Source of the DNA: Cornus controversa
Lineage: Eukaryota > Streptophyta > Magnoliopsida > Cornales > Cornaceae
Direction of reading: 5' to 3'
DNA: 64,000 bases
Assembly: GCA_026545225.1 (NCBI GenBank)
Contig: CM048845.1
Location: 51,002,033-51,066,032, forward strand
The notes beneath the pieces are model-generated. The model did not search any database and had not been told where the DNA came from. It saw nothing but the letters and a program-made list of their open reading frames with translations. The stretch's first letter is position 1, and the number at the start of each line of letters is the position of its first letter. Of this stretch, positions 2,600 to 57,420 are shown piece by piece. Made by a program: the position numbers and the translations under genes.

Positions 2600-3228
2600 A
2601 AAAATATAACAGCCTCGCTCAAGTTCACTTCCCAAGTTTCATAATTGACAAACAAGTAGGTGAGAGTAGTTTTACCTACACCCCTCATTCCGACGAATCC
2701 CAATGTCTTGATATGATCAGAAAGATTAGGTTGTTGGAGGAGAAAACATTTGATCTTTAGTAACTGCTCAACGAACCCATAAATCTGCAATTCAAATTTC
2801 GCTCTGCGTTTTCGTACAGAACAAGCTGTGACAGAGCTTGTCAGTAAAGAAGTTTCAGCTTCTAAATCAACATCCTCCATATGTTGCAACTTTCTTTTGA
2901 TTCAAAGTAGTTTCCTTCCAGTTTTATAGAAAAACCACAACTTGTTGATAGAAAGTGCATCCAAATGACTTTTCTTGTTCTGCACCTTACGCGCCCGCTC
3001 CTACTCTACTAACATGATGCAGTCCGCTAATGTGAACTTGAGTTTATACAGCCATTTCTTCATCATGATAGGCGGGGATGGACCAATGCTCTTTTCTTCC
3101 AACACCTTTTCAATCTCCTCAAAATGGAGGAGTAGGGGAAGTTCAACTCCGAATTCCTCCTTTGCTTCTTTGAATTCACTCATGAATTTGTCCTTGAGAA
3201 AAGGATCTGCTGCCAAGCCTGCTGCCAT
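2600..3228 (-). pseudogene. NLR-HMA family copy A: N-terminal domain and P-loop only
   Basis: The minus strand starts MAAGLAADPFLKDKFMSEF and continues through the charged helical N-terminal domain shared by all copies (EELPLLLHFEEIEKVLEEK-like) to a P-loop written GMRGVGKTTLTYLFVNYE. After that it stops matching the other copies and runs into unrelated sequence and the (AT)n repeat. The Walker B, GLPL and HMA parts are absent. The N-terminal part and the P-loop part are no longer in one frame, so this is a truncated relic. The ATG at 3228 is in the same place as in copies C and F (AAATGGCAGC context). Confidence 0.85.
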
Positions 3229-7454: not shown

Positions 7455-9450
7455 GAGCATCTGCATTGGCCTCTTTGGATTTTGGCACTCCAAAATTTCC
7501 ACCTCAGCTTTTCCCAGAGCCATGTTAGCGATTTCAGCTATTTAGATTTTGGCTCACATTGGCCTCTCCAGATTTTTGCTAGCCGAAGAATAATAATTTT
7601 TTATTTTTTAATTTTATTTTTATTTTTTCGCAATGACTGTATTTTAAATGTCTCTATTTCAAACAGCTATATTTCAACAAATACAATATAAATTTGAAAT
7701 AAATTAAATCAAATACAACATAGGTTTAAACAATACAAATTAAAAAGAAATATATTTCCTAAAGATTAAAATAACACTTTAAGAAGTTTAGCCATGGAAG
7801 GAACATATATTCTCCAATATCTCTTGTTGGCGTTCAATAAGCCATTCTTTTGCTACGGGTGTTGGCATCGATTCTGGATCTTTTTGCATTATCTCTATTT
7901 CTTCACCTCTTTGTATCCTCTTTGTTTTTTCTGCTTTGCATGTCTCTCATGCTAATTGGGTAGTCGCAAGAGAATTTGTCTTAGAGTAACTTTTACATCA
8001 TCAAACATGTTAATGAATTGATCCAGTAATTGACTGGAAGATTGAAATTTATTCTTATTTCCCTTCTACTACGCTGCTTTTCATCCCGGTTGTCGTTGTA
8101 ATGACTAAGATTCTTCAACAATGGGTGAATCATTGTCGCCAATGTGTGAAAGTCCGTCAACCGAACTTGGGGTCATCGCTACATTAATTAGTTGATGGAA
8201 TAGATGGCCCTGAGTAAGTAAGATGCTCATTAATATCAATCTAGAATCCACTCCTCTTCTTTGGTTGTTTCTTCTTTTTGTTTTTAATTCTTATTTTCCT
8301 CTGCATAATGTGAAGTCCATTTACTATTATGCTTCAGAATTAACTAACAATGATCATACATAAATTTCTCATTTTCACTTTCACTAGCATATAGATATTC
8401 TGCTGTGTTTATCCATATGTTTAAAATTAACAATAATTAGAAGCTGAATGTTTAAAATAAATAAGAGTTAAATTTCATATTGTAAAAACTTACCGAATCA
8501 TCATTGTTGTAGCCACTGATCTGATTTATTTCGATCTTCTTTGAACATCCAGAGAATTTGTTAATTTTTGTTTGGAAGATTGACCAACGATTCATCAAAG
8601 TCGTGTGAGTTTGAGTAGATGGAGCACCACTAAGATGTTCTTGCTAATTTTTGAGAATTCGGATCCATAACGCCGACCTCCTTTGGTCTGTATTGGTTAT
8701 TGCATAAGAGCTAACGTTCAACCATGCGTGACACAAAGTTTCATCTTCGACCGTAGACCAATTGGGATTCCAGAAAGTCGGTTGCTTTCTGGGAGGTTGG
8801 GAGAAATCCTTATTAGTACCAAATTAGAATGGTTGATGAGATGAAAATTGCGATTTGAATGGTGGTTGTGAGTAAGATGGAAAACCAGTATTATTTTTAT
8901 CGAATACTGAAAACTCATGACTTGAGTTGGGGGTAGTATGGTGATCGGTTATGCATGGAATTGGATTGATGAGTATATAAAAAATAATTAAGATAGAGAT
9001 AATAAAAAAGATTTGTAAATTGAAGGAGTAGAGAAGATAGATAATTTTGATATGAGGTGAATGGCGGTGGGGTTCATGTATTTATAGAGGTGAAAAGAAA
9101 GAAAGAAAAAAAATTAAAAGAAAATACTTCCTTTCACATTTTTTTTAAAAATTATTTACTTTGGCCCATTGATTGTGCAATATAGTCATTGGGGGGCCAA
9201 AACCATTTTAAAGTAGTTTTGACATTTCATCGTTAATTTTAAAGTAAAAAGAAAAAAAAAAAAGAGGAGGAGGGACGGGTGTGGGCTGGCTTCATGCACC
9301 TGTATTTTAAAAAAAGAAAAAAGACCGGCCGGTGGTTGGGTTTCCTATTGGGAGCCCCAAGTGGGGCCAACCAATCCAGCGGGCCCCAATGGGAGGCTTA
9401 ACTCGCAGAAATGTTAAAAATGGGCTCTTCGAGAGCCCATGTTGAAGCTC
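7455..9450 (-). mobile_element. PIF/Harbinger-like DNA transposon carrying a decayed ORF1
   Basis: The ends are imperfect inverted repeats: GAGCATCTGCATTGGCCTCT on the left, and the right end reads back as GAGCTTCAACATGGGCTCTC. The 3-bp target is TTA on the left. The right flank is now TTC, but the duplicate copy of this end (13429) still has TTA. GAGC(A/T)TC-type ends with a TTA target are characteristic of PIF/Harbinger. The interior holds a Myb/NAM-associated ORF1-type relic on the minus strand and no transposase, so the element is non-autonomous as it stands. Confidence 0.8.
7780..8960 (-). pseudogene. PIF/Harbinger ORF1-type protein (trihelix/Myb-like plus NAM-associated)
   Basis: Minus-strand reading gives NNTGFPSYSQPPFKSQFSS, then RKQPTFWNPNWSTVEDETL, CHAWLNVSSYAITNTDQRRS and THTTLMNRWSIFQTKINKF. 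This is the SANT/trihelix-like first exon of the widespread plant proteins annotated as 'glutathione S-transferase T3-like' or NAM-associated, which serve as the accessory ORF1 of PIF/Harbinger elements. The exon ends at a good donor (GTAAG, last exon base 8494). The second exon at about 7780-8480 holds weak NAM-associated remnants. The first exon contains two in-frame stops (after HQPF and after ILKN), so it is not functional. Confidence 0.75.
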
Positions 9451-12057
9451 TTCGATTTTTTTTATGGCTGTAAGGGAAAATAAAGTTGAACTTCACTAAT
9501 TTCAAGAGTAGCCCATGACTGCACCATGTATTATACTATTCTACCTAATTAGTATGCTCATATTGAGATTAATAATTGCATAATATTTAATCAAATAAAT
9601 TGAAACAAGTCGATTTAATTTGTTAAACCAAAGCTGTAATCAGATTAATTGAAACTGAATTTTAAATTATTTTACAAAAGCCCATTCATCCTTCCCTAAT
9701 TCTAGATCAACCGATGTTGCTCAACTTTATTTGAAAGCCTAAACCTCTCTGGTTCTTGTAAACGGATGTAAGCTCTACAATCCAAAATTTTCCCAATTCC
9801 CTCGCAATTGCTTCAGGATCACATGTTCCCACAACTGTTATTTCATCATCATGGTCAGATCCACCAAAGACATTACGAACTCCTACAAATTAAGTTCAAA
9901 AAAGTCAAAGGGCACTTCATTTTTATAAACAATTTACCAATACTTGTAGAAGAGAGCTAATATTCGCACTACACCAATATTCTTTGGCACTTCACTATCA
10001 TTTTTTTGTAGAGTAAAATTAGAAAGGTGTCCTCCTGATATACAATTTTTTATTCTTATATTTTTAATACCCTAATTGCCATTATTTGATAATGTTAAAA
10101 TTCTTAACCCCAAATTGCAACTTCTCTGTCACTTTCTCTATCTTTTTTGGCATGAAAAGGTTTTAGAAATCTATGAATCACGCAATCCTAATTTTCAGAC
10201 TATATTGTTTGAGTTGATTTTAAAAATATCATTTCTTCTTGTTGAATCAATTTATCAATATTTATTTTAGAAGTAGAAAAATTTACGATTCCATATAATG
10301 ATTCAGAGAGTATCAACCAAATGCATATAATTAGGATAATAAAAGTTACGTGATTAGATAAGTTGGGAAGAAGTTATTAATAATAGATTACCAATATAAA
10401 TATTTAAAAAAGTATTTGAGTTGAAAAAAAACATTAAATTAATGAATAAAACCTATTTGGGAAAAAATTAATTATATGTAAAATCAAAAGAAAGTTTAAT
10501 TTCACTTAAATAAAAATTATGATATATCGTTCTTTAAGGAAACTAAGGAAACCTTTTTTTATTTTAATAGGGAACTTCTAGAAATTAAAAGATGAAAAGA
10601 GAAACATGACTCTATGAAATCCTTTTCCAATTATAGTTGTCTTAATTTAACTAAGGAGCTTTTGCACCAAAATTTCAAAAAGTAAAAATAAAAAAATTAA
10701 TATGATGGTATGTTTCTAATTTTTAATTTATGTTATTTTATAAATAAAACACATGAAAAATAAATTACACGTTTGGTGAGCAAAAAGACAATATTTCAAA
10801 ATTTGGATTCTTTTAGTTATATAGGATAGGGACACGAACAACAAGTTTCAATTGAAAAATGTCTAAACTATAGTATCTGAGTGGTAATAAATGAATTGTT
10901 ATATTATAAACTTAAAGCAAAAACAAAATCAATCACAAATTTCTTAGGATAACAAGGATGCAATTGAAAAAACTTTTTTTTTAAAAAAGATAAAATAGAA
11001 TTAGAATTGAGTTTTGATTTAAAAGGACAATTAGGATACTAAAAATATAGAAATCAAATATGGTATAATATAAGATCACTTTTGCAATTTTACTTTACAA
11101 AATGCTGAAAATGAAATGACAGAAAATATTGGTGGAGTGCTAACATCACCCACCCTTGTAGAATAGTAAAGTGTTTGACTTATACCTGGAAGTCTCTCAA
11201 CTAAGTCCCTGATGTTGTCGTCGTAAGGTTGAGTAAATTTCAAAAAAAACTGCTGGAAGGACAAACAAACAACATCTAAAGATCTAATCAGAGTTGATAT
11301 TACATTTTCTGGACAACTGAGTTAAAAATAAAAGATTCAACAAAATTACTGTACATATATAGACATTGATTCAAGACTATAAAACCGATATATATAGAAT
11401 AAATTATGGGAACAAAATTTGGATAGAAGCGAGAGAATCAAACCTTGACCACAAGTGAATTTGTCCAGTACCTAAGGATGTGTTTGCAGAAAGTTAGTAA
11501 TGGAGAGAGAATCTTTGCAAATGACAGAAACACCATTCCGATTTGGGAAAACCCAAATATGTATGGTAGACGAACAGTGAAAAAAAATGGAGTACTTACT
11601 CTTTGTTGGCGAGTTCAAGGGAAATAATCTCCGCCAACGATTTTGCTGCAAAAGGAAGACCATCGCACCTGTCAATAATATCCTGCTTCATTCTTGAAAT
11701 CATTAGGTGATGATCTGAGGTTAAAAATGTCTTCCTTCCAACTGAATCCATAAATATGGACCAGAGTGTCCCTTCATCGAAAGTAGGCTCAAGTCTCAGC
11801 AAATTTTGCTCACCCACCATGCTTATGACTACGTCTTCGCTACAGGTGACAATGACAGCACCCCCACAACCCTTTGGCAAGCTGTCAAAAAGATTACGGA
11901 AGCATATAGGGTGGTCCGAACCCAAATCAGAGTACCACTCACTCACATGACGATCGTGCTCTGAGCCGCACGGATAGATGATCATAGACATTGTAATGGT
12001 AACGCAATGTTTCCACCAAGCATCTCACAATTTCTGAGGGATTCATTATTTTTTCAG
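8692..12057. repeat. Tandem segmental duplication, unit 1 (partner 12664-16200)
   Basis: Collinear with 12664-16200 at an offset of about 3.97-4.04 kb. It includes the 3' part of the Harbinger element, about 1.7 kb of intron/spacer, and the NB-ARC and HMA exons. Unit 1 ends abruptly inside the NB-ARC exon at 12057, where an LTR fragment starts. Confidence 0.9.
9707..12057 (-). pseudogene. NLR-HMA family copy B: NB-ARC 3' half plus complete HMA domain
   Basis: Minus-strand exons are as follows. The NB-ARC part is 11600-12057, with PICFRNLFDSLPKGCGG, AVIVTCSEDVVISMVGEQNL and RCDGLPFAAKSL (GLPL motif), ending at donor GTAAGT. The micro-exon 11444-11471 encodes YWTNSLVVK. HMA exon 1 is 11186-11252 (QFFLKFTQPYDDNIRDLV). 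HMA exon 2 is 9707-9882 (VRNVFGGSDHDDEITVVGTC, DPEAIARELGKFWIVELTSV, then a stop). Phases 2, 0 and 1 are compatible across all junctions. The Walker B region is deleted (the sequence jumps from EHDR to HVSEWYSDLGSD), and everything 5' of RNBS-A is replaced by an LTR fragment. The 3' exons themselves have no stop. Confidence 0.85.
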
Positions 12058-12059
12058 AT

Positions 12060-12655
12060 AGCGTGACCCAAATAATGGTTGCACCTATAATTATTTCTTG
12101 TGTTCCTCACACTGAGGGTATGTGTATTGGTTCTCTGATTGGGATATAGTAGATAGAACTTGCTCGTGGGTTTAACCCACTTTGTTGATATTTCAGGTCC
12201 TAGGCAGTTTCCCCCGCGAGGATAGAGTACTAGGGTTGATTGTGACAGACATCTACTCTCATCAGTCACAGGGTAGGAATCTAATAAACGAGGATAGAGT
12301 ACTAGGGTTGATTGTGACAGACATCTACTCTCATCAGTCACAGGGTAGGAATCTACTTTTTATTCAGGAGTTAAACTATGAACTCATTTAGAGGTTTTGG
12401 TTATTGGTTTTTAATTAAAGTCTTAAAACTTTTGTTCTTTCTGGTTAAGGGGTCCTTGGGTTACGGGACTTCCAAATTGTATTACTAGACATATAATTAT
12501 TTATTTATCAATTATTTCAATTCAATGGGATTTCTGTTAAGCTTTTAGTAGTTATTTTATTTCTGTCTTTTGCCTCCATGCTTGTTGCTATCAGTTGTTA
12601 ACATTCCTCAGGTTTTGTGTATGAGACTGGCCACCTCATGCGCAAAATTTTCTGG
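12060..12655. mobile_element. 3' end of a chromovirus LTR (same family as 50881-53789), fossil
   Basis: The landmarks TTCTCTGATTGGGAT, CTCATCAGTCACAGGGTAGG, GGGTCCTTGGGTTACGGGAC and ATGAGACTGGCCACCTCATG occur in the same order at 53300-53780. Here only about 600 bp of the LTR remains, wedged between NLR copy B and the truncated Harbinger copy. A 72-bp segment (12218-12289) is duplicated in tandem (12290-12357). Confidence 0.8.
12218..12357. repeat. Tandem duplication, 72-bp unit x2
   Basis: The unit GAGGATAGAGTACTAGGGTT..GGTAGGAATCT is repeated almost exactly. The related LTR at 53415-53480 has it once. Confidence 0.9.
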
Positions 12656-12663: not shown

Positions 12664-13429
12664 CAATTGGTTATTGCATCGAGTTAATGTTCAACCATGT
12701 GTGACACAAAGTTTCATCTTCAATCGTGGTCCAATTGGGATTCCAGAAAGATGGTTGCTTTCGAAGAGGTTGGAAGAAACTGGATTGCAGCACTTTACTA
12801 GGACCAAATTAGGATGGTTGATGAAATAAAAATTGTGATTCTCTGTAGGAGAATTCATAATTCATGTTGAATAGTGCTTGTGAGTAAGATGGAAAACCTG
12901 TATTATTTCTATCGAATACCAAAACTCATCACTTGATTTATTGAGTTGGGGGTAGATATAATAAAATAGATTTGTAACTTGAAGGTGTAGAGAAGATAGA
13001 TAAATTTGATGTGAGGTGAATGGCTGTGGGGTTCATGTATTTATAGAGGTAAAAAGAAAGAAAGGAAAAAAATTAAAAGAAAATACTTCTTTACACATTT
13101 TTTAAAAAAATTATTTATTTTGGCCCATTGATTGTGCAATATAGTCATTAGGGTCAAAACCATTTTAAAGCAGTTTTGACATTTCATCGTTGACAGAAAA
13201 AAAAAAAAATTTGAGGAGGGGTGTGGGCTGGCTTCACGCACCTGTATTTAAAAAAAAAAAAAAAAAGATCGGCTCATAGTTGGTTTCCCCGACTGGAAAA
13301 AGGCTGGGAAAATTACCTCAGCCCTATTGGGAGCCCCAAGTGGGGCCAGCCAATCCAGCGTGCCCAATGGGAGGTTTAGCTCGCGAAAATGCTAAAAATG
13401 GGGCTCTTTGAGAGCCCATGTTGAAGCTC
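12664..13429 (-). mobile_element. 5'-truncated duplicate of the PIF/Harbinger element
   Basis: Collinear with 8692-9450, with small indels. It ends in the same inverted-repeat terminus followed by TTA at 13430-13432. The start is the tandem-duplication breakpoint rather than a transposon end. A fragment of the ORF1 exon is still recognisable (TTCCAGAAAGATGGTTGC-type sequence near 12740) but carries no open frame. Confidence 0.8.
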
Positions 13430-13758
13430 TTAGATTTTTTTTATGGCTGTATGGGAAAATAAAGTTGAACTTCACTAATTTCAAGAGCAGTCCATGACTG
13501 CACCATGTATTATACTATTATACCTAATTTGTCCATGATTGTGCTTATGTTTGATCATAGTCAGTTGTAGAAGTACATAGTATGCTCATATTTAGATTAA
13601 TAATTGCATAATATTTAATCAAATAAATTGAAACAAGTCAATTTAATTTGTTAAACCAAAGCTGTAATCAGATTAATTGAAACATAATTTTAAATTATTT
13701 TACAAAACCCATTCATCCTTCTCTAATTTTGGATCAAGCCATGTTGCACAACTTTATT

Positions 13759-13907
13759 TCAAATCCTGAACCCCTGGTGCTTGTAAACGGATGTAAGCTC
13801 TACTATCCAAAATTTTCCCAATTCCCTCGCTATTGCTTCAGGATCACACGTTCCCACAACTATTATTTCATCATGACGGTCAAATCGATGAAAGACTTTA
13901 TCAACTC
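13759..13907 (-). other. Exon 4 of copy C: second half of the HMA domain
   Basis: It begins after acceptor TTTGTAG and reads VDKVFHRFDRHDEIIVVGTC, then DPEAIARELGKFWIVELTSV, then YKHQGFRI and a stop. The pattern 'V-x-V ... VVG-x-x-DPEAI-x-x-L-x-K-x-W' is the beta-alpha-beta C-terminal half of an HMA fold. The exon enters in phase 1, completing the Gly of LPG encoded at the end of exon 3. Confidence 0.8.
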
Positions 13908-15232
13908 CTACAAATTAAGTTCCGAACAAGAAAAAGTCAAAGGGCACTTCATTTTTATAAACAATTTATCAATGCTTGTAAAAGAGAGCTGGTATTTGCA
14001 CTCCATCAGTATTTTCTAGCACTTCACTCCCATTTTTTTGTAAAGTAAAATTAAAAGGTATCCCTCTGCTATACAGTTTTGGATTCTTATATTTTTAATA
14101 CGCTAATTGCCATTATTTGATGAGATTAAAATTCTTAACCCCAAATTGCAACTTCTCTCTCTCTTTCTCTATCATTTTTTGCATGAAAAGATTTCAGAAA
14201 TTTATGAATCACACAACCCTAATTTTGTAGACTATATTGTTTGAATTGATTTTAAAAATATTATTTCTTGTTGTTGAATCAATTTATCAATATTTATTTT
14301 AGAAGTAGAAAAGTTTATGATTTCATATAATGATTCAGAGAGTATCAATCAAATGCATGTGATTAGGATAATAAAAGTTACGTGATTAGATAAGTTGGGA
14401 AGACGTTAATAATATATTACCTAGATAAATATTTAAAAATGTATTTGAGTTAGAAACAAACATTATATCAATGAATAAAACTTATTTGAGAAAAAAAATT
14501 AATTATATTTAAAATCAAAAGAAAATTTAATTTCACTTAAATAAAAATTATAATATATAGTGTTTTAAGGAAACTAGGGAAACCTTTTTTATTTTAATAG
14601 GGAACTTCTAGAAATTAAAAGATTAAAAGAGAACCATAACTTTATGAAATCCTTTTCCAATTGTAGTTGTCTTAATTTAACTAAGGAGCTTTTGCACCAA
14701 AATTTTAAAAAAAAAAAAATTAATATATTGTTTTTCTTCCTTTGTTTTTTATTTTTCTCTCCTTCCTTTCTGTTTTGTTTGTTCACAAATTGATGATATG
14801 TTTCTAATTTTTAATTTATGTTATTTTATAAATAAGACACATGAAAAATAAATTACACGTTTGGTGAGTAAAAAATAATATTTCAAAATTTGGATTCTTT
14901 TAATTATATAGGATAGGGACACGAATAATAAGTTTCAATTGAAAAATGCCTAAACTATAGTATCTGAGTGGTAATAAATGAATTGTGATATTATAAACTT
15001 AAAGTAAAAACAAAATCAATCACAAATTTTTTGGGATAACAAGGATGTAATTGAAAAAACTTTTTTTGTTTAGGAAAGATAAAATAGAATTAGAATTGAG
15101 TTTTGATTTAATAAAGCAATTAGAGTACTAAAAATATAAAAATCAAAGATGATATAATATAAGACCACTTTTATAATTTTATTTTTAGAAAAGTTAAAGT
15201 AGAGTGCCAGATAGTAAAATTTGACTTGATAC

Positions 15233-15299
15233 CTGGTAGTGTCCCAACTAATTCTATGGTTATGTCGTCGAAAGGTTGATTAAATTTCAAAAAAAACCG
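15233..15299 (-). other. Exon 3 of copy C: first half of the HMA domain
   Basis: The acceptor is TTTGTTCTTCCAG and the donor is CCAG|GTATCAAG. It encodes RFFLKFNQPFDDITIELVGT followed by LPG. The LPG at the exon end matches the 'LPGV' turn of plant HMA domains. Where a metal-binding HMA has MxCxxC, this one has QPFDDI. Confidence 0.8.
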
Positions 15300-15482
15300 C
15301 TGGAAGAACAAACAAACAACATCTAAAGAAGTTGAGATCACATTTTTTGGACAACTGAGTAAAACTATAAAAGATTCGACAAAATTACTGTAGATATATT
15401 GACATTGATTCAAGACTATAAAACCGATATATATAGAATAAATTATGGGAACAAAATTTGGATAGAAGCGAGAGAATCAAAC

Positions 15483-15510
15483 CTTGACCACACGTGAATC
15501 TGTCCAGTAC
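15483..15510 (-). other. Exon 2 of copy C: 28-nt micro-exon
   Basis: The acceptor CATCCTTAG is preceded by a good branch-point sequence (TTACTAAC) about 20 nt upstream. The donor is AAG|GTTTGATT. With the last two bases of exon 1 it encodes EYWTDSRVVK. The length and borders are the same in copy B (11444-11471). In copy G the same exon has a TAG and its donor is changed to AT. Confidence 0.75.
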
Positions 15511-16788
15511 CTAAGGATGTGTTTGCAGAAAGTTAGTAATGGAGAGAGAATCTTTGCAAATGACAGAAACACCATGGCGATTTGGGAAAACCCACAGGTA
15601 GACAAACAGTGAAAAAAATTATGTATGCGTGAGTAGAAAAATGGATTACTTACTCTTTGTTGGCGAGTTTAAGGGAAATAATCTCCGCCAACGATTTTGC
15701 TGCAAAAGGAAGGCCATCGCACCTGTCAATAATATCCTGCTTCATTCTTGAAATCATTAGGTGATGATCTGAGGTTAAAAATGTCTTCCTTGGAACTGAA
15801 TCCATAAATATGGACCAGAGTGTCTCTTCATCGAAAGTAGGCTCAAGCTCACCTACCATGCTTATGACTACGTCTTCGCTACCGGTGACAATAACAGCAC
15901 CCCCACAACCCTTTGGCAAGCTGTCAGAAAATTACTGAAGCATATAGGGTGGTCCGAACCCAAATCAGAGTACCACTCACTCACATGCGATACACTGTCC
16001 AATACGATCAAATACTTCTTACCAGACAGTCGATCGTGCAATTCTCTGAGCTGCACGGATAGATCATCATCATCATCATCATCATTGACTGCATGTGCGT
16101 TATTATCATTGTAAGGGTAACGCAATGTTTTCAACAAGCGTCTCACAATTTCTGAGGGATTCATTATTTTTTCAGATAGCGTGACCCAAATAATGGGTGA
16201 GAACACTCTCCGAGCTTCATAATTGACAAACAAGTAGGCAAGAGTAGTTTTACCTACACCCCTCATTCCGACGATTCCCACCATCTTGATATGATCAGAA
16301 GGATTAGGTTGTTGGAGGAGAGAAGATTTGATCTTCAGCAACTGCTCATCGAACCCATAAATCTGGAATGCAAATTTCCTATTAACCCATGAAGAATTCC
16401 ACACAGAACAAACTATGACAGAGCCTGTCACTAAACAACCTTCAGCTTCTGCATCAACATCCTGCATTTTTTGCAACTTTCTTCTGATTTGAACTAGTTT
16501 CCAACCAGTTTTACAAAAAAACCACAGCTTTTTCACTGAAAGTCGATCCAAGTGACTTTTCTTCTTCTGCGCCTTGCGCTCGCGCTGCTTCTTAAGTGTA
16601 TATAGCCAGTTCCTCATCGCAATAGGCGTGGATGGACTGATGCTCTTCTCTTCTAACACCTTTTTGATCTCCCGAAAATGGACGAGGAGGGGAAGTTCAG
16701 CCCCGAATTCCTCCTCGGCTTCTTTGAATTCAAGCATGAATTTTTCATTCAGAAATTCTATGTAATCCGCTGCCAAGCCTGCTGCCAT

Positions 16789-18962: not shown

Positions 18963-19537
18963 GTGAGGAGGTGAACACTAAAGAGAATAATGTGAGTAGT
19001 TTAACAAATGGTTTGATTTAGACTACTTGACAAGTCATTGTGGGTAATCTAGCTTATTCCACTTATACTCATGTGGTTGATACTGCATTGCAGCACTGTC
19101 AAATAAGGAGGGATTACAGGAAAGGATAGGGGGAGAAATGAAATGATAGATACTTCGCTAGCCATATAGTGAAAAAGAAAAACAGAAATAGTAGGGTAAT
19201 TTGTTTAATTGATGAACTATGGGAGGGTCTACAATGTCATACCATATAATGTGCAGGCTCTTCGGAGATCGAGGGTAGGGTTCCGATAAAGGGTAACTTT
19301 AATCGTGTTTTTATTTAATACTAGGGCATCTCACTCTTTTGTGTCTCAGTTGTTTGTTAGGATAACGGGTATACTTACTCAGTCGTATAGTTCTCCACTT
19401 ACTATAACTACACCATTGGGAGTTAGTACGTTATTAAGGGAACGATGTAGTTAAGTCACTATAGGCATTGGCAGACTAAGGTTCATGGCAGACCTATTGG
19501 TCCTAGACATAAATTCATATGATGGCAGACCTATTGG
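18963..19537 (+). mobile_element. Chromovirus fragment (5' part up to the protease region), fossil
   Basis: Collinear with 47681-48245, which leads into the protease of the chromovirus at 47.7-53.8 kb. Here it is cut off at about 19523 and joined, through a 14-bp filler, to an Athila-like element. Confidence 0.8.
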
Positions 19538-20663
19538 CCCACCCGCTTCACATCTTCTCAGTGGGAGCGGGTGAGGTGACACTTAGAGCGACAGGACCAC
19601 CAGGGCGATCCTCCGGACGATGTAGATATGGATGCCCTGGTGGAGATGGAGGAGGGAGAGCCTGCAGGGGATGGGTCTGAGTCTGAGGAGATGGATATGG
19701 CTGCAGAGCGGCACGACATCCTGGCGACGGGCTATTCCTGCCTGGCGGCTGATGTTGAGCGGCTCCAGCAGGGTTCTGACGAGCACGTCCAGGTGAGGCA
19801 GAGTCAGCTGGAGGGCATTCGTTCGGACATTTCTTCTCTGGCTCAGGGTCAGAGGGCGATTCTCGAAGAGTTCCGAGCCTTCCGGCAGGACCTACAGTTC
19901 CTGTTTGCAGGACGAGCTTCCACCTCCACTTCTGCTCCCACCGAGCCACCACCACCACCACCCGCCCTCGAGTAGCTATTTTTATGTGTCTTTTCTGTTT
20001 TACTTTATGTATTTCATGTTCTTTCTTTATGTTTGATAGGCCATGTTGGCCATGTTTTCTTTCATTTTTAGTTTCTTTTTGAGTATTCCACCTACATGTA
20101 CACCGTGTACTAAACTCATTTTCCCATTTATGGAATTCAGTTATTTTTCTTTTTTCTGTACTACCATGTGTTATCTTTACTGTCTTTATTTCTGCTTTCT
20201 GTCAATATCTCTGTTCTCTATACTTTGACTATGTATGTAGTACCACTTGTCTAATTGTTATATGCGATTCAGTTGATGATTTCCGTTTATTACCGCCTAG
20301 TTTAAATTCCCAATACTGTTGAGATTGCTTCAACACAGTATGGCCTTAATAAAAAAAGGCAGCCCCTTTGCGTGCTATACGTTAGCGTGCCTGGATAGTC
20401 AATATCTTATCGCATAGACCTCTTAGACAATTGGAAAACACCAGTTCGGACCCTTAGATATACAGTGATATTGGCATTGTCTGTTTGTGCATAATTATTT
20501 CATTATGTTCTGTTTATCTACTTTTTGTTCCTTTTAATGCTCGTGGTATCCAGTTGGTGCTTTGTGCAGGTTCTTCTTACTTGCAGGATGACCGCTACTG
20601 TGGAATACCATTTTTGTCGCATTCAGCAATCCCGGTAACTTCTTTCCTTGTTCTTCTTGTCCA

Positions 20664-20698
20664 AACATTGAGGACAATGTTGCATATACGTTTGGGGG
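20664..20698 (+). other. Conserved hairpin plus polypurine-like tract
   Basis: AACATTG-AGGA-CAATGTT (20664-20681) can fold into a 7-bp stem with an AGGA loop. A GTTTGGGGG tract follows at once. The same pair occurs in the two other Athila-like elements of the window. Confidence 0.55.
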
Positions 20699-21215
20699 TG
20701 CGGTATGCTATACCACTTGAGTGTCATTATAGAGCAGTTTTCTTTTTCTTGATATTTTTTCATGCTTGCTATGATGTCTTGCTTTTTTAAAGGAAGATCA
20801 TTTGAATAAATGTCCGAGGTAAATGCAGTAGGTAGTTAAGAACTTTAACATTGTAAATACCCGCACTTTTGCAAGCTATACAATAGGCTAGAACGGTCTA
20901 CATTTTTGTCTAAATTTGAGCACGTATGGTTCTTGCCCTAAATTTGTCCTTAACCGCACAAATTCGCACACATGCATTTTAAACTGTGGGGTATAAGTCT
21001 GAGGGAGAATTTTGTAAATTTCTGTTTTTATCTGAACAACTTAAAGAATAAGTTCTTCCAGTTGTTGCAAAAAAAAAAGGAGAGAAAAAGAGAAAATTTG
21101 CAATAAGCCTTCTCACTCAATAAACCGGATTTCTATGCCTCAAAGCAGGGAATATTTGCGTATAAGTGTGCAAGGTTGAGCAATAATAAGCGGGTGGCTT
21201 GCTTAAGCTCATCGC

Positions 21216-21320
21216 CTTGTAAGCTCGGTTATTAAGTCCGAGGGGTGTTTCTTCACCTAATGCCCTAAAACCAATTGGTTTGGGAGTCATTGGCCCAATG
21301 CCGCTACATGGGCTTACAAG
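21216..21320 (+). other. Conserved 105-nt block, possibly a structured RNA region
   Basis: Bounded by CTTGTAAGC and its exact complement GCTTACAAG. The interior is rich in short inverted repeats (CCAATTGG, ATTGGCCCAAT). The same block is found at 60776-60880 (opposite strand), and twice, diverged, at 44291-44396 and 44451-44556. Confidence 0.55.
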
Positions 21321-21767
21321 AAAGCAAAAAGAGCTAAGCATTGCACGGTCATCCGCACATGAGCAATCATGAATGTTTTGCGATAATGAACAGCGGTGTC
21401 GAACGTTTTCAATGAGTTTTTCTCTTAAAAATAGATTTGTTCATTTTCTTCTCCGAATATGACAAAAGCCACGCGTTAGAATGCATGTTCACTTTTCAAA
21501 GAGGATTTTGGGGTCAGAATTGGTATGTTTGTTCGGACTGGCCATTATGTGGGGACCGTCGTTTATTTATAGCTTGTGCGAGTCCATTTTTGCTAATGAC
21601 CACATAGTTCTGTAATACTTTTTGCATTTGCCAAATGTGAAATGAACGGATGATCGCCCTTTATCTAGTTGATGACTAAGCATGATTCAACTTTTGTATA
21701 AGATAGTTAATTTCATTTTTGTAATATTGCATTGCTAAGGGACTAGCAATATGTAAGTTTGGGGGTG

Positions 21768-23172
21768 TGATAAGTGTTCAATTTTATGCATTTGAACCCT
21801 CTTTATTGCATATGTTAATTCTGTTTTTGCGTTTACCGAGATATGTTTACGGTATTTTTGTGTTTTTGATGTATTGCAGGTATTAGAGTAAATGGAGCAA
21901 AGTTTGAAGTTATTTGCAGCTGAAGAGAAAAAGTCAGAATTGCAGCCAAAGGCATCTTGATCAATCGAGATGTTGATCTTGATCAATCGAGATCTCGATT
22001 GATCGAGATCTCATTTCGATTGATCGAAATCTCGATCAATCGAGATTCAATCGAGATTGATCGAGATTCTGCAGAACCCACTTGGCCACTTGCTCACCTG
22101 CTCTCCCACTTGCAACAAAATCCCCCTTTTTGCACGACTTAGGGGGATTGTCTGACTTGAACAAGACCCTTGGGGACCTTCTTGATACAAGGGATATATA
22201 TATTGATATATATATATATATGGTGGGCCCCAAGGTTGAAAAGGAAGCCAAAAAGCACACAAAAAGGGCCATATCTCTCATATCTCACATATCTCTCAAG
22301 ATACATCAGACCATCCAAGGAGAGACCTTCGGGAGAGGAAGAAGAGGAGCTAAACCAGACCAAGAAGCTTCACTTTCTTCATCAATGGAAGGGTGCAAGG
22401 CTGCCATGACCAACTAACTCCTCTACTAGGGTGTGGTTGACACACCTAGCCATGTAAACTTGTTCATTTTTGTAGCACTTGGGGATTTATAGTTAAATGT
22501 TGATTATTTAGCCTAGTGAATATGTACACAAATACATTTCTTATATATATTCATTTGATTTGGAATTTATTCTTGTCTTAGAGTAGATTTTGTCACTTGA
22601 ATGCACAACATTTGCATATTCCACAAGAAGTGCAAATGATGGCTAGATAATGGTGTTTAAATGAATGTGTGATGTTTGCTTGTATAGACCATGCCAAAAC
22701 AAGGTAGTTTGGATGCATGTAGGGTTCACCTAGAGAGTAGGGTAATTAGGTAGTTAGTTAGGTTGAAGAGCTATGCTTGTTGAAGATGGATTATGATAGG
22801 TTAGCACACACATTGATCTTTTGATATGTCATTGAGGTCACAAGCCTAATGACATTGTTAGGCACTTAATTAATGAATCCCATGCTTGCTACACTTATGA
22901 ACATGTGAATGGCTAGTGGTGGAAACGAACCCTAGTTCTCTCTCCCAACTTTACTCTTTAATTTTATTGTCATTTCATTCATGCAATAGTTTATAATCCA
23001 AAATTCAAAAACCTATTTTTAGGATTAAAGTAGAATTAATCTTTCTTTAAGACAAGTGCAACTAGTCCTCGTAGGATCGATACCTCTATATAGAACCTTA
23101 TCTACAAAGATTCGTGCTCTTGCGAGTGGTTAAATTATATTTTGATAAAAAAGGGCAAAAATTAAGCTCACA
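21768..23172 (+). repeat. 3' LTR of the Athila-like element
   Basis: It starts TGATAAGTGTTC directly after the polypurine tract and ends near TTAAGCTCACA. It contains a dense cluster of GATCAATCGAGAT / TCGATTGATCGA words at 21957-22070. The outer boundary is approximate (23172-23194). Confidence 0.75.
21957..22072. repeat. Palindromic TCGATTGATCGA array in the LTR
   Basis: About eight occurrences of ATCAATCGA or its complement lie within 116 bp, many embedded in perfect palindromes such as GATCTCGATTGATCGAGATC. A parallel array is at 60027-60143. Confidence 0.85.
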
Positions 23173-23419: not shown

Positions 23420-23605
23420 AGAAAACGGACCAGGCCACTTCTTCATCACGATAGGTGTGGATGGATAGATGCTCTTTTCTTCCAACACCTTTTCAATCTC
23501 CTCAAAATGGAGGAGCAGGGGAAGTTCAACCCTGAATTCCTCCTTTGCTTCTTTGAATTCACTCATGAATTTTTCCTTTTGAAATTCTAAAGGATCTGCT
23601 GCCAT
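23420..23605 (-). pseudogene. NLR-HMA family copy D: N-terminal domain only
   Basis: The minus strand reads MAADPLEFQKEKFMSEFKEA, then ELPLLLHFEEIEKVLEEKS and STPIVMKKW, and is then replaced by unrelated sequence. The N-terminus lacks the GLAA residues seen in A, C and F (MAAD instead of MAAGLAAD). Only about 60 codons survive. The upstream region is the same conserved block as in A and G. Confidence 0.85.
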
Positions 23606-28209: not shown

Positions 28210-28669
28210 GCAGCAGATTATCTAGAATTTCTCAATGAAAAATTCATGTGTGAATTCAAAGAAGCAAAAGAGGAATTCGGGGTTGAACTTCCCCTCCTCC
28301 TACATTTTGAGGAGATTGAAAAGGTGTTAGAAGAGAAGAGCATCAGTCCATCCACGCCTATTGCGATGAGCAGACTGCATCATGTTCGCAGAGAAGGAGC
28401 GGGAGCACAAAGCCCAGAACAAGAAAAGTCACTTGGATGCACTCTCTGTGAAAAAGTTGCAATCTATGAAGGATGTTGATGCAGAAGCTGAAGCTTCTTT
28501 AACTACGGGCTCTGTCACAGTTTGTTCTGTGTGGAAACGTAGAAGGAAATTTGCATTCCAGATTTATGGGTTCGATGAGCAGTTACTGAAGATGAAATCT
28601 TTTCTCCCCGAAGAACCTAATTTTTCTGATCATATCAAGATGGTGGGAATCGTCGGAATGAGGGGTGTA
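28210..28669 (+). pseudogene. NLR-HMA family copy E, 5' part (up to the P-loop)
   Basis: The plus strand reads YLEFLNEKFMCEFKEAKEEF, GVELPLLLHFEEIEKVLEEK, then, after frame changes, KKSHLDALSVKKLQ, FAFQIYGFDEQLLKMKSFLP and HIKMVGIVGMRGVG. There the Sirevirus-type element interrupts it; the next codons (KTTLAYLFVNY) resume at 36362. The region of the usual ATG is lost by a small deletion (AAGGCAGCAGATTATC). The copy was therefore probably dead independently of the insertion. Confidence 0.85.
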
Positions 28670-28674
28670 GGTAA

Positions 28675-29852
28675 TGTGAGTTGCGCGGTGCGGAAGCGGT
28701 TGCGAAAAGTATTTTAGAACCTAGAGGGGGGCTGAATAGGATCACTTGCTCGTTTGCTTAATTTTTAATTAATTCAATTTTAAGTTCAATTAATCAAACA
28801 ATTAAAGCAAGTAAATAAATAAAGTGCAAGTAAAGAAAATAATGCACCAGATATACGTGGAAACCCAAGGCGGGAAAAACCACGGAGGGAGGCGGCACGC
28901 CTCAGGGAACCAATTCACTATGATGAAGCAAAGTACAACAGACTATGTCTCAGTCTCACACCCCTCTTCACTCTGTCAAGGATCTGATGCGAAACACCTC
29001 AGGCTTATGATTGCGACAACACGTCCAACTGCTGCAGACTTCCGGCTAACGTCACCACCCTTACAGAAAGGTTGCTGGAAGAACCAAAATACTCAGCAAG
29101 TATTTTGTTCCCTTCGTAGTGCAATCTGGTTACCTTTCTTCCTCAGCAAGCAAGCGAAGAACCTTCAATCTAATGTTCTGATTAGCAAATCAATTTGATG
29201 CAGTCTCTGAGCAGCTAATCAGAAGTAGAATACCATCCTAAATATCACTCGTGAGGTATGGATGTGTGTTCTAAAAATATAAAGCCCTAATTATACTGTA
29301 TATATTTTCTCTCTCTAAAAATATTATTTCAGGGCCTCTTTTGTAGAGAAAATATGAATACATATATATAGGCAAGGAAGTCCTAATTCTACTTGGAAAA
29401 GAAGTTGAATACCAAAATAGAACTTTCTTAGAAGTTTCAAACCCAATAGGAATCAGAATTTCCGTCAAAATCTATTTCTTATTTGGAACAGGCTAAGTTG
29501 GACCGGTGCCAAATTATCAGGACCGGTGAGACTTTTTGAAAACCTGCAGAAACCATCTTACCGAGAAAAGTTGGACCGGTCCTAAATATTGGGGACCGGT
29601 CCTACTTTGAAAAACCCTAAACTTTTTATTTAAACCCTGGTTTTTCAAAATAGGCTCGGAACTAAAAAGTGCAGAGTGTCCTCACCATACTTACCTGTAC
29701 TATGGTGTTCTAACTGATTTATCGGCTTCCATGCACTTGAGTGTTAGTTTGAAGTTGTCGATGATCGGTTACATAAAATAACATGAAACTTACACCTCGA
29801 TCATTCAGGTTTTGATCACCGAAATATGCCAATTACAAATTTATATGTCACA
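28675..29852 (-). repeat. 3' LTR of the Sirevirus-type element
   Basis: 1178 bp direct repeat of 35176-36361. It contains two ACCGGT hairpin pairs (29499-29530 and 29573-29604). Confidence 0.9.
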
Positions 29853-35175: not shown

Positions 35176-36361
35176 TGTGAGTTACGCGGTGCGGAAGCGG
35201 TTGCGAAAAGTATTTTAGAACCTAGAGGGGGGGTGAATAGGATCACTTGCTCGTTTACTTAATTTTTAATTAATTCAATTTTAAGTTCAATTAATCAAAC
35301 AATTAAAGCAAGCAAATAAATAAAGTGCAAGTAAAGAAAAGAATGCACCAGATATACGTGAAAACCCAAGGCGGGAAAAACCACGGAGGGAGGCGGCACG
35401 CCTCAGGGAACCAATTCACTATGATGAAGCAAAGTACAACAGACTCTGTCTTAGTCTCACACCCCTCTTCACTCTGTCAAGGATCTGATGCGGAACACCG
35501 CAGGCTTATGATTGCGACAACACGTCCAACTGCTGCAAACTTCCGGCTAACGTCACCACCCTTACAGAAAGGTTGCTGGAAGAACAAAAATACTCAGCAA
35601 GTATTTTGTTGCCTTCATAGTGCAATCTGGTTACCTTTCTTCCTCAGCAAGCAAGCAAGCAAGCGAAGAACCTTCAATCCAATGTTCTGATCAGCAAATC
35701 AATTTGATGCAGTCTCTGAGCAGCTAATCAGAAGTAGAACACCATCCTAAATATCACTCGTGAGGTATGGATGTGTGTTCTAAAAATATAAAGCCCTAAT
35801 TATACTGTATATATTTTCTCTTTTTAAAAATATTATTTCAGGGCCTCTTTTGTAGAGAAAATATGAATACATATATATAGGCAAGGAAGTCCTAATTCTA
35901 CTTGGAAAAGAAGTTGAATACCAAAATAGAACTTTCCTAAAAGTTTCAAACCCAATAGGAATCAGAATTTCCGTCAAAATCTATTTCTTATTTGGAACAG
36001 GCAAAGTTGGACCGGTGCCAAATTATCAAGACCGGTGAGACTTTTTGAAAACCTGCAGAAACCATCTTACTGAGAAAAGTTGGACCGGTCCTAAATATTG
36101 GGGACCGGTCCTACTTTGAAAAACCCTAAACTTTTCATTTAAACCCTGGTTTTTCAAAATAGGCTAGGAACTAAGAAGTGCAGAGTGTCCTCACCATACT
36201 TACCTGTACTATGGTGTTCTAACTGATTTATCGACTTCCATGCACTTGAGTGTCAGTTCGAAGTTGTCGATGATCGGTTACATAAAATAACATGAAACTT
36301 ACAACTCGATCATTCAGGTTTTGATCACCGAAATATGCCAATTACAAATTTATATGTCACA
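35176..36361 (-). repeat. 5' LTR of the Sirevirus-type element
   Basis: 1186 bp direct repeat of 28675-29852, slightly longer because of extra CAAG units near 35650. It holds ACCGGT hairpin pairs at 36009-36037 and 36081-36113. Confidence 0.9.
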
Positions 36362-36574
36362 GGTAAAACTACTCTCGCCTACTTGTTTGTCAATTATAAA
36401 GCTTGGGAAGTGTTCTCACCCATTATTTGGGTCACACTATCTGAAAAAATAATGAATCCCTCAGAAATTGTGAGACGCATGTTGAAAACATTGCGTGACA
36501 ATGACAATGACAATGACGACATACAAGCAGTCAATGATGATAATGATCTAGCCGTGCAGCACAGAGAATTACAC
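36362..36574 (+). pseudogene. NLR-HMA family copy E, continuation after the insertion
   Basis: The plus strand reads KTTLAYLFVNYKAWEVFSPI, IWVTLSEKIMNPSEIVRRML and an Asp/Asn-rich run (NDNDNDDIQAVNDDNDLAVQ), then stops matching at about 36574. There it meets the 5' flank of copy F in inverted orientation. Walker B, GLPL and HMA exons are absent. Confidence 0.85.
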
Positions 36575-37182
36575 GCTTCATAATTGAGAAAAAGGTAGGC
36601 AAGAGTAGTTTTACCTACACCCCTCATTCCGACGATTCCCACCATCTTGATATTATCAGAAGGATTAGGTTGTTGGAGGAGAGAAGATTTGATCTTCAGC
36701 AACTGCTCATCGAACCCATAAATCTGTAATTCAATTTTCCCTCTAACCCATGAAGGATTCCACACATAACAAGCTGTGACAGAGCCTGCCACTAAACAAC
36801 CTTCATCTTCTACATCAACATCCTGCATTCTTTGCAACTTTCTTCTGATTTTAACTAGTTTCCAACCAGTTTTACAAAAAAACCACAGCATTTTCACTGA
36901 AAGTCGATCCAAGTGACTTTTCTTGTTCTGCGCCTTGCGCTCGCGCTCCTTCTCTGCTAATATGATGCAGTCTGCAAATGCAAACTTAAGTGTATACAGG
37001 CAGTTCCTCATCGCAATAGGCGTGGATGGACTGACGCTCTTCTCTTCTAACACCTTTTCAATCTCCTCAAAATGTAGGAGGAGGGTAAGTTCAACCCCGA
37101 ATTCCTCCTTTGCTTCTTTGAATTCACACATGAATTTTTCATTGAGAAATTCCATGGAATCCGCTGCCAAGCCTGCTGCCAT
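36575..37182 (-). pseudogene. NLR-HMA family copy F: N-terminal domain to P-loop
   Basis: From ATG 37182 the frame is open through MAAGLAADSMEFLNEKFMCE, LLLHFEEIEKVLEEKSVSPS, FAFADCIILAEKERERKAQN, WFFCKTGWKLVKIRRKLQRM and KMVGIVGMRGVGKTTLAYLF. It is cut after FLNYEA at the inversion junction. This is the best-preserved N-terminal region and shows the 11-residue segment (FADCIILAEKE) missing from copy C. Everything from RNBS-A onward is lost. Confidence 0.85.
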
Positions 37183-45084: not shown

Positions 45085-46605
45085 TGATAAGTAATGAATA
45101 TTGCATATTCAATGCCCTTAAAATTATATGAATTAGTGTCTTAGTAATATTTATTTCATATTTTTTATTAATAATTTTAATATTTTTATGATTGTAGGTG
45201 ATTAAGGGTAATTCTGATTAGGAATGGTGAAATCGGGCTACAAATGGTGCTCATTTAGTTATCACTGAAGCTTGGCCCATTAGAGATATGTTTATATTGA
45301 AGATCCAAACTAAATGGACTAAAGAAATGGGCTGGAAATGAATTTAAATGAAGAAAAGGAGCACGGGCCCATTCGCATAGAAGATTGGGCCAATTCAGGC
45401 CTAAAAAGTCCTGGACCCGTGTTGGTATTCAGACCATAACTCCGTACACGATTGTCAAAACGACCCAAACTCCGCGTGGGTTGAAGGAAATTCAATTTTG
45501 CACAATTTCATATTTCACGAAAATTTCCTAAAACGGACGTTTTCATCAACTTTCTGCCCTATTTGCGCAGCTGCCACTTTTTGGGCGCAAATGCCACTTT
45601 GTGAGGAGCAAGTGCCATTTTATTATGCGCACTTGCCACTTTGGGTAGGCCAGGTGTCCCGTTGGTTTGTTTTCGCAAAGTAAAAAGGAGGAAACGAAGA
45701 AAAACTAGGGTATTCTGGAGGGGGGAAGCAGAGAGAGATATATAGAGGCAATTCGTGACGATACGGGCAAGACGACGACGACTTCATCATCGTTCAAGCT
45801 TGGACCTCCGATCATGAACAACTAAACACCATTCCGGGGAAGTGATGTAACCCTAACCTATCTTTCAATGTATTAGCTTGTATATTAATTTGGGAATTAT
45901 TTATTTTGTGCATTGATTGTATAACCAAGACATAAACAACAGCTGTGCTGTTAGTTTTAATTTGAATGGATTATTTCATTGCATATTTACTTTTGTTCTT
46001 GTAGAATGAATGCATGTTTGCAGTGATTAGGGTTTAGTTCTTTTCAACTTCTGTGATTTTGTTAAGACAGGTTATACAATAGTTTTCACATATCATTCAA
46101 TTTAGAGTTTTTATAATTCGTACTAAGCGAAGATGGGTTATCATATCATTAGTTAGTCAGATGTATAGGCCATGCTTAGCGAAGACGAGTTATGCTTAAT
46201 TGTATGTTGAATGAATCCTCTTGATAGAACTGAATTTGGCTTGTAGCCATTCTTTTCTGAATGCATAGATTAAATGTCCCAAATTAGTACAACTTTCATT
46301 GTCAAAAGGTTAGTGGTGAAGTCAATTCCCAGGACCCTCTATCTCCAGTATCCATCATTTATTTATGTTATTTAATTTCAGCAACTTAATTTAAAAACAA
46401 AACAAATTCTCTTTCAATTAAATTAGACAAGATCTTGATAGCTTAACAACACAACCAATGCAGTCTCTGTGGGTTCGACCCCTACTCACCACTTTACTAA
46501 TTTTAGTAGAGTATTTGTAGGGTTTTATAAATTCTTTTTTGTCGAGGTGTAAAACAACAACGACATTATTCCATATTATTTTATCTGTGTTTTGCACGTC
46601 GAACA
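45085..46605 (+). repeat. 3' LTR of the young Athila-like element
   Basis: 1521 bp, nearly identical to the 5' LTR. Confidence 0.95.
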
Positions 46606-54870: not shown

Positions 54871-54879
54871 TTTTGCTTT

Positions 54880-56623
54880 AAAAAGGCAATTAGGGTACTA
54901 AAAATATAAAAATCAAAGATGGTATAATATAAGACCACTTTTATAATTTTACTTTACAAAAAGATGAAAGTGAAGTGACAGAGAATATTGGTGGAGTGCC
55001 AATATCACCCTTATAGAATATAAAGTTTGACTTGATACCTGGAAGTCTCCGAACTAATTCCATGACGTGCTCGTCGAAATGTTGAGTAAATTTCAAAGAA
55101 AACCGCTGAAAGAACAAACGAACAACATCTAAAGATCTGATCAAAGTTGATATTACATTTTTTGGACAACTGAGTAAAACAATAAAAGATTCGACAAAAT
55201 TACTGTACATATATAGACATTGATTGAAGACTATAAAACCGATATATATAGAATAAATTATGGGAACAAAATTTGGATAGAAGTGAGAGAATCAAATCTT
55301 GACCACACTTGAATCTGTCTAGTACCTAATGTGTTTGGAGAAAGTTAGTAATGGAGAGAGAATCTTTGCAAATGACAAACAGTGAAAAAAATTATGTATG
55401 CGTGAGTAGAAAAATGGAGCACTTCCAACACCAACACCAATACTGAATTATTGAACTTACTCTTTCTTGGCGAGTTTAAGCGAAATAATCTCCGCTAACG
55501 ATTTTAATGCGAAAGGAAGGCCATCGCACCTGTCAATAATATCCTGCTTCATTCTTGAAATCATTTGGCGATGATCTGAGGTTAAAAATTTCTTCCTTCC
55601 AACTGAATCCATAAATATGGACCAGAGTGTCTCTTCATCGAAAGTAGGCTCAAGTCTCAGCAAATTTTGCTCACCCACCATGCTTATGACTACGTCTTCA
55701 CTACCGGTGAGAATGACAGCACCCCCACAACCCTTTGGCAAGCTATCAGAAAGATTACGGAAGCATATAGGGTGGTCCGAACCCAAATCAAAGTACCACT
55801 CACTCACATGCCATACATTGTCCAATACGATCAAATACTTCTTACCAGACAGTCGATCGTGCAATTCTCTGAGCTGCAGGATAGATCATCATCATCATCA
55901 TCATCATTGACTGCTTGTGCGTTATTATCATTGTAATGGTAACGCAATATTTTCAACAAGCGTCTCACAATTTCTGAGGGATACATTATTTTTTCAGATA
56001 GCGTGACCCAAATAATGGGTGAGAACAGTTGCGGAGCTTTATAATTGACAAACAAGTAGGCGAGAGTAGTTTTACCTACACCCCTCATTCTGACGATTCC
56101 CACCCTCTTAATATGATCAGAAGGATTAGGTTGTTGGAGGAGAGAAGATTTGATCTTCAGCAACTGCTCATCCAACCCATAACTCTGGAATGCAAATTTC
56201 CTATAATCCCATGAAGGATTCCACACAGAACAAACTGTGACACAGCCTGTCACTAAACAACCTTCAGCTTCTGAATCAATATCCTGCATGTTTTTCAACT
56301 TTCTTCTGATTTGAACTAGTTTCCAACCAGTTTTACAAAAAAACCACAGCTTTTTCACTGAAAGTCGATCCAAGTGACTTTTCTTGTTCTGCGCTTTGCG
56401 CTCGCGCTCCTTCTATGCTAATGCAAACTTAAGTGTATACAGCCAGTTCCTCATCGCAATAGGCGTGGATGGACTGATGCTCTTCTCTTCTTACACCTTT
56501 TCGATCTCCCAAAAATGGAGGAGCAGGGGAAGTTCAACCCCGAATTCCTCCTGTGCTTCTTTGAATTCAAGCATGAATTTTTCATTCAGATTCTATATAA
56601 TCCGCTGCCAACCCTGCTGCTAT
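54880..56623 (-). pseudogene. NLR-HMA family copy G: near full length, last HMA exon lost
   Basis: Exon 1 (about 55457-56623) carries KMVGIV-like P-loop text (IVRMRGVGKTTLAYLFVNYK), an Asp run, KKYLIVLDNVWHVSEW (Walker B), LSDSLPKGCGGAVILTGSED and RCDGLPFALKSL. HMA exon 1 is 55039-55105 (RFSLKFTQHFDEHVMELVRR, LPG). Damage: the start codon is ATA instead of ATG at about 56623; a small deletion and other changes lie in the N-terminal domain; a 1-bp deletion lies near 55877 before the Asp run; the micro-exon has a TAG and a changed donor. The final exon is replaced by a copia fragment. It is related most closely to copy C. Confidence 0.85.
55039..55105 (-). other. HMA exon (first half) of copy G
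   Basis: 67 nt between acceptor TTTCAG and donor GTATCAAG, the same length and phase as in B and C. It encodes RFSLKFTQHFDEHVMELVRR then LPG. It also lacks CxxC. Confidence 0.75.
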
Positions 56624-56650
56624 TTCAACTAATTTAACCAATATTCTCTT

Positions 56651-56651
56651 T

Positions 56652-56703
<52 letters not shown>

Positions 56704-56704
56704 A
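56651..56704. repeat. (CT)n microsatellite in the leader of copy G
   Basis: About 25 CT units, longer than the roughly 8-10 in the same place in C and F. Confidence 0.9.
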
Positions 56705-57420
56705 ACCTCATATAACTCGATCGGATTGATAAATTGTATTCTTACCAGACCATACAGAACACTAGTCGTTGCAGTAAGGTTAAGGTCTTTCCGCGTCTGG
56801 CCTTATCAGTCGAAAGCTAATTTATGGGTCATGTTTATTGCTGAGTAATGTTATTACGAGCCTCTCACGTCCCTTGTCACAAGCTCTTTCTAAAATAAAT
56901 ATTTTTAAATACAAAAAAAATATTATCTGGTAATTAATACTAAAATCATTTCAAAAAAAAAATCACCTTAAAATTTCATAAATTGAACTTATATTTACTA
57001 TTTGATGATATATTTTATTTTTACATTTTTTTGTGTTTAAAATTTTTTATTTTGATATAGAGTTTATGATAAGAGCAATAAGAGCCCCTCATTATTGCAT
57101 TTCTCTTTATCATTTTCCTGTGTGTATATATATTCAGAATTTGTTTGTGGTCACGACTTAATCATATATAAATAAGAGAGGGTCTCCCGTGTCCTCCTTC
57201 CATTGGGATCAAATATATATCTATATATATATATATATATTATAAAGAGTTCTTTTTCTTTTTTTTTAGTTTTAGTACTATTTTTTTTAATTAAAAAAAT
57301 AGAGATGTGCTGATACACAAAATTTCCAACTAAATGAAATTAATGCTCATATTCAATTGCAAGTCAACAATCTGGTAAGGAATTCACTTTGGCCACCTTG
57401 TGGGCTTTTTCCCTTCATTT
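56705..57420. promoter_or_regulatory. Upstream region of copy G, shared with A and D
   Basis: Conserved GTCGTTGCAGTAAGGT block, one copy of the 140-bp unit, and (AT)n runs. No gene. Confidence 0.5.

Follow-up and report, generated by a model that had tools for sequence, protein, structure and literature searches.

Few integrated baits have been studied as thoroughly as HMA domains. Excerpts of the published accounts place such domains in RGA5 and Pik-1 (PMC4759884, PMC9528084), and a survey of 2016 (PMC4759884), in the part available, records NLRs with HMA domains for B. napus, C. rubella, M. domestica, M. truncatula and T. urartu, so that their occurrence in eudicot NLRs is as such not new. 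An LRR-less protein in which ARC1 is followed at once by an HMA domain was not found in the excerpts of the open-licence literature that we covered (including PMC12787737, PMC4759884, PMC9528084 and PMC11371149), and neither was a report of an NB-HMA family in Cornales. Here we describe a gene, gene A, in a stretch of 64 kb (the window) that has 36.5% GC and many repeated blocks and whose protein matches mark it as plant DNA. Our best reading is that gene A belongs to a family of Cornales NB proteins that have no LRR and carry an integrated HMA domain which Pfam misses.

Gene A and its relatives in Cornales

An earlier reading of the window, made from the sequence only, had joined an NB-ARC exon through a 28-nt micro-exon to two tail exons, with introns of phases 2, 0 and 1 and suitable splice ends. 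All of these elements are present, on the minus strand (Table 1). The introns have GT/AG ends, with the GT donor following the end of exon 1 at 15654. The single frameshift of that reading is there as well, as one frame change in exon 1 near 15925-15931, and has to be supplemented: gene A has also lost 11 and 5 residues in frame when compared with its kin.

A whole-chain protein search with gene A, in which 7,993 candidates were scored, returned 43 proteins at E <= 10. The closest relatives in this set, Cornus florida P0001-P0004 and Nyssa sinensis P0005-P0007, come first, with P0009 (also Nyssa) in ninth place; both genera belong to Cornales, and so, to judge by these matches, does the window plant. 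Gene A shares 43-47% identity with these relatives, which cover 93-98% of the query in Cornus and 34-90% of it in Nyssa. The Cornus florida proteins have an unbroken reading and thus provide the intact relative that the sequence-only reading had proposed to look for, and its description of the NB-ARC part as At5g45490-like agrees with the names that relatives in the search carry. In an unrooted tree of 22 rows (gene A and 21 of the 43 search matches), gene A, Cornus and Nyssa lie on one side of a branch supported at 99/99 and in 200/200 bootstrap trees.

The chain of gene A, written with an X at the frame break, matches the Pfam NB-ARC family (PF00931) at E 2.9e-21. This match stops at profile position 214 of 248, and in the predicted model of P0002 the HMA domain comes directly after ARC1, in line with the earlier claim of an NB-ARC part without ARC2 or LRR. 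An MHD-like motif is absent in all 10 Cornales rows. The family has neither ARC2 nor LRR, and with them lacks the canonical NLR body. In the eight readable Cornales rows (P0001-P0006, gene A and copy C; P0007 and P0009 are unreadable), the second kinase-2 Asp is without exception replaced by N, S or H; it is kept in 34 of 35 non-Cornales rows, eight of which share one Prunus persica gene name and four of which come without organism name. The loss of this switch residue coincides with the HMA tail.

The distribution of the tail was followed with a five-sequence tail profile that includes P0002, P0003 and P0004, whose scores therefore follow from the way it was built. For the rows that are not part of the profile, the E values for the set of 43 are 4.9e-16 (P0001) and, in Nyssa, 2.5e-4 (P0006), 0.016 (P0007), 0.046 (P0005) and 2.3 (P0009). 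Outside Cornales, the profile found no tail among the 35 proteins, the best E value being 0.24. All four Cornus proteins thus have the tail, and three of the four Nyssa proteins have the first half of the domain, after which the annotated chains diverge; P0009 has none. In Nyssa sinensis P0006 (F0562_006926), the half HMA is followed by weak Pfam matches of transposon type, to a zinc knuckle and to Pol_BBD, and this part of the chain is probably a gene-model error. The simplest account, which the tree supports, would be that an At5g45490-like NB protein acquired the HMA domain once, ahead of the divergence of Cornus, Nyssa and the window plant.

Nature and attachment of the tail

Evidence for the attachment of the tail comes from Cornus. 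Over 78 columns, which start at the micro-exon and reach the domain end, the spliced gene A tail shares 33 identities with P0003 (E 3e-12), and the micro-exon residues YWTDSRVVK align with YWSDSNVEK. Because this alignment runs through the micro-exon, it speaks for a fusion and not for two adjoining genes, as the sequence-only reading had held. P0002 matches the second half of the domain (E 5e-11), and in a comparison of profiles the A and B tails match the three Cornus tails with 99.4% probability. With five Cornales tails as tblastn queries, exon 4 of gene A and copy B was found by the four Cornus tails and not by the Nyssa tail; matches to exon 3 and the micro-exon were weak (E 0.95, 1.4 and 4.5), amid chance matches. 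The donor of exon 1, the acceptor of the micro-exon and both ends of exon 3 are common to gene A and copies B and C.

PF00403, the usual criterion in surveys, gives no match at E 10 in the A and B tails, the eight Cornales proteins or the five aligned tails, and Pfam and NCBIfam searches with the tails alone return no HMA family. The HMM search that had been suggested for the predicted protein thus recovers the NB-ARC and not the HMA domain, and the absence of a PF00403 hit is the very finding that had been named as speaking against the HMA claim. The claim nevertheless draws support from profile searches against 177,635 distinct PDB sequences and from a predicted fold. The five-tail profile has six PDB matches, the best of which is OsHPP09-HMA (9rsv, there named Os03g0111400; E 3.9e-7); the others are HIPP6 and four 9tf- chains, two of them named as the integrated domain of Rmo2 and two as 'protein kinase domain-containing protein', the latter being probably HMA constructs to judge by the alignment. 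A profile built from Cornus tails alone finds OsHPP09 at 9e-7, followed by four 9tf- chains (E 0.11-0.34) and by three further proteins (E 1.2-1.6). The window-only profile is weak, with a heavy-metal protein (E 0.54) and OsHPP09 (E 1) as its two rows, so that the HMA signal needs the Cornus sequences. A reversed-profile control gave seven rows with no HMA among them (best E 0.022). As single sequences against the PDB, the A tail has three matches (best E 0.1), with a bacterial heavy-metal protein second (E 0.44) behind a CheA domain, and the B tail has three (best E 0.16), none of them HMA. Tail-only searches of 5.8 billion proteins gave 23 and 485 candidates, none at E <= 10.

The beta-alpha-beta-beta-alpha-beta fold that had been expected after the NB-ARC was obtained in a predicted model of the Cornus florida tail. 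The alignment used for fold prediction took in 25 of the 43 proteins. The best fold matches of this model are the HMA domains of Pik-1 and RGA5, with the ancestral Pik-1 HMA as the best Foldseek match (E 6.9e-5); the receptor structures matched by the tail come from rice. The best 50 matches listed in each fold search with the full-length model were NLR, apoptosome, replication and proteasome proteins, held no HMA chains and give no test of the tail, which was therefore folded alone. The marks of metal-binding HMA domains and HIPPs are an MxCxxC motif and a CaaX end. CxxC is absent from all five aligned tails and a CaaX end from the C-termini of gene A and the Cornus proteins, which makes metal binding and lipid anchoring by the tail unlikely.

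Two alternatives concern the tail itself. An NB-ARC gene and an HMA gene could be neighbours without joint splicing, and this would agree with the length of intron 3 (1,325 nt, from the coordinates) and with the ease with which such exon chains arise: at least one chain of a 28-nt and a 67-nt exon occurs in 42 of 200 dinucleotide shuffles of the gene A region, and the real region holds two candidate micro-exons and two candidate 67-nt exons. Splice fit was therefore rejected as proof of the exon chain. On its own, the splice fit of gene A is weak evidence; homology carries the case. The Cornus florida predicted proteins have NB-ARC and tail in one annotated chain, which, together with the P0003 alignment across the micro-exon, leaves separate genes very improbable. 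Equally slight is the chance that the tail is a different alpha/beta sandwich, of the KH or ACT kind. Such a domain would account for the silence of PF00403, for a KH_GLD-3 match of the cut P0004 tail, one of the five tails (E 0.0009), and for a weak ACT_4 match of P0006 (E 0.042); profile and fold searches, however, lead to HMA domains, and in the excerpt seen the Pik-1 HMA is likewise interrupted by an intron (PMC8294853). We are thus highly confident that gene A is an NB-HMA fusion and a member of the Cornales family.

Copies and probable decay of the cluster

Beside gene A, the window holds six further copies or fragments, B to G (Table 1). The block 8692-11954 with copy B is 81% identical to 12666-15991 with gene A. 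Among A-G, no intact copy was found within the 64-kb window, and exon 4 of copy C was not found there. Scans of the window for tRNAs and Rfam families gave no match.

Table 1. Gene A and its copies in the window.
Feature	Positions	Strand	Content and basis
Gene A exon 1	15654..16788	-	CC-like helices, NB and ARC1; reading frames, Pfam NB-ARC
Gene A micro-exon, 28 nt	15483..15510	-	YWTDSRVVK after split codon; splice ends common to copy B
Gene A exon 3, 67 nt	15233..15299	-	beta1-alpha1 of HMA; within P0003 alignment
Gene A exon 4, 149 nt incl. stop	13759..13907	-	beta2-beta3-alpha2-beta4 of HMA; tblastn with four Cornus tails
Copy B, part of NB-ARC exon	11600..12082	-	no CC, no P-loop
Copy B micro-exon	11444..11471	-	splice ends as in gene A
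Copy B exon 3	11186..11252	-	
Copy B exon 4	9707..9882	-	HMA second half, longer C-terminus; low end counted off on the translation
Copy C	54871..56838	-	NB-ARC exon with stops and frameshift
Copy C micro-exon	55325-55298		stop inside, donor lost
Copy C exon 3	55105-55039		
Copy D	36574..37182	-	N-terminal half to P-loop, then rearrangement break
Copy E	2626..3228	-	N-terminal fragment, 2 stops
Copy F	23435..23605	-	short N-terminal fragment
Copy G	28210..28714	+ (opposite strand)	N-terminal fragments, two frames

Gene A and copy B differ at 12 of 67 sites in exon 3. The comparison with intron 2, where 9 of 182 sites differ, has p 0.003, and that with intron 3 has p 0.06. The changes are concentrated in alpha1 and beta2-beta3, with nonsynonymous to synonymous counts of 10 to 2 in exon 3 and 10 to 1 over the 20 codons that follow. 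Positive selection on the tail was rejected, since the comparison with intron 3 stays at p 0.06 and the dN/dS tests on the A/B tail all lack significance (p 0.07 to 0.99).

Several repeats lie in and around the cluster. Close to exon 4 lies a block of some 125 bp (13990-14114 and 9960-10083) that recurs inverted at copy C (54882-55007) and, as a weaker match, at 11028-11143; it is possibly a small mobile element that helped to break this copy. At 36361-36575, an NB-ARC stretch is inverted with respect to the rest of copy D and matches 16035-16255 in reverse. Long inverted repeat arms (19537-23019 and 59083-62600; 89-95% complementary, in seven pieces) surround much of the cluster. Two stretches of 300 nt each, 40846-41145 and 45085-45384, are 100% identical and 4,239 bases apart, perhaps as the ends of a young transposon. 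A 162-bp unit is repeated in four tandem copies, 63-100% alike, at 51931-52578, and open frames in the window have a transposon-derived look by eye.

Possible function and known systems

By sequence, alignment and model, the proteins of the family are made up of a CC-like helical bundle, NB, ARC1, a linker encoded partly by the micro-exon, and an HMA domain without CxxC. In the mechanism that we find most likely, the HMA domain would serve as a bait that mimics host HPP/HIPP proteins targeted by effectors, and the NB part, with the second kinase-2 Asp lost and ARC2 absent, would be a weakened switch. This combination points to a role as sensor or decoy, in which the protein would work alongside a full-length helper NLR, in the manner of RGA5 with RGA4, and would form no resistosome alone. 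A weakened sensor switch has a precedent, which is not a rule: according to the portion of the source seen, a P-loop mutation inactivates the RGA4/RGA5 pair when it is in the helper and not when it is in the sensor, whereas Pik-1/Pik-2 require the P-loops of both partners (PMC9528088). The bait mechanism for the intact family is in our judgement evenly poised between right and wrong.

The family and the locus have to be weighed separately. Gene A and the copies may be nothing else than pseudogenes of a birth-and-death cluster with no working protein here, which we think rather probable: gene A has its frameshift and in-frame losses, copy B is without CC and P-loop, copy C has stops, D-G are fragments, and the RNBS-B Arg is missing in gene A and copies B and C. 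Against this, A and B have kept an open and spliceable micro-exon, exon 3 and exon 4, and a single-base frameshift can come from a sequencing error. Decay of the locus is compatible with our explanation for the family, and gene A itself is probably decaying and no longer functional. As regards the family, the HMA tail might also be no bait but a working part that regulates the NB part as a dimerisation, targeting or chaperone-like module. That all Cornus proteins have the tail, and three of the four Nyssa proteins a part of it, would suit such a module, as would the last 25 codons, which are nearly constant between A and B (1 nonsynonymous and 2 synonymous changes). It would have to do without metal binding and lipid anchoring, as discussed, and the closest folds are effector-binding HMA domains, although a shared fold proves no function; we regard a working part as unlikely, if worth keeping in mind. 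For the explanation as a whole, a Cornales NB-HMA family with a bait or sensor mechanism and a probably nonfunctional window copy, the balance tips slightly in favour. Only tentatively, and with somewhat more doubt than belief, do we propose its most specific form: a minimal effector-bait receptor of Cornales, consisting of CC-NB-ARC1 with a switch without ATP hydrolysis and a cryptic HMA domain, without ARC2 and LRR, and convergent with RGA5 and Pik-1.

If this is true, a bait needs no LRR, since the HMA domain would sit on a CC-NB-ARC1 receptor in a distant eudicot order. It also suggests that surveys based on PF00403 would undercount such fusions. HMA integration in eudicots would then be invisible to Pfam surveys, and HMA proteins would be likely effector hubs for eudicot pathogens too.

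The known systems share single features with the gene A family. At5g45490-like short NB-ARC proteins, such as P0013 of Fagus and P0028 of Punica, are also CC-NB-ARC1 proteins without ARC2 or LRR, at about 30-35% identity. They keep both kinase-2 Asp residues, and no HMA tail was found in them; the Cornales family differs in both respects. In Pik-1, a rice sensor NLR, an intron lies inside the HMA domain, as in gene A (PMC8294853, in the excerpt seen). Its HMA domain is inserted between CC and NB-ARC of a full CC-NB-LRR body, whereas that of the LRR-less gene A family is C-terminal. In the rice sensor NLR RGA5 (Pia-2), the HMA domain follows the LRR, as far as the available text of the source goes (PMC9528084); in the gene A family, which lacks ARC2 and LRR, its place is after ARC1. 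No other solved sequence comes as close to the tail profile as OsHPP09, a rice HMA protein solved with AVR-Pia bound (9RSV). HPPs are by definition without CaaX in the passage of the source seen (PMC13395435), and so is the gene A tail; OsHPP09 is, by the same partial account, apparently not part of an NB protein, whereas the gene A tail is. As OsHPP09 is a target of AVR-Pia, this match makes the bait hypothesis directly testable with the Cornus proteins.
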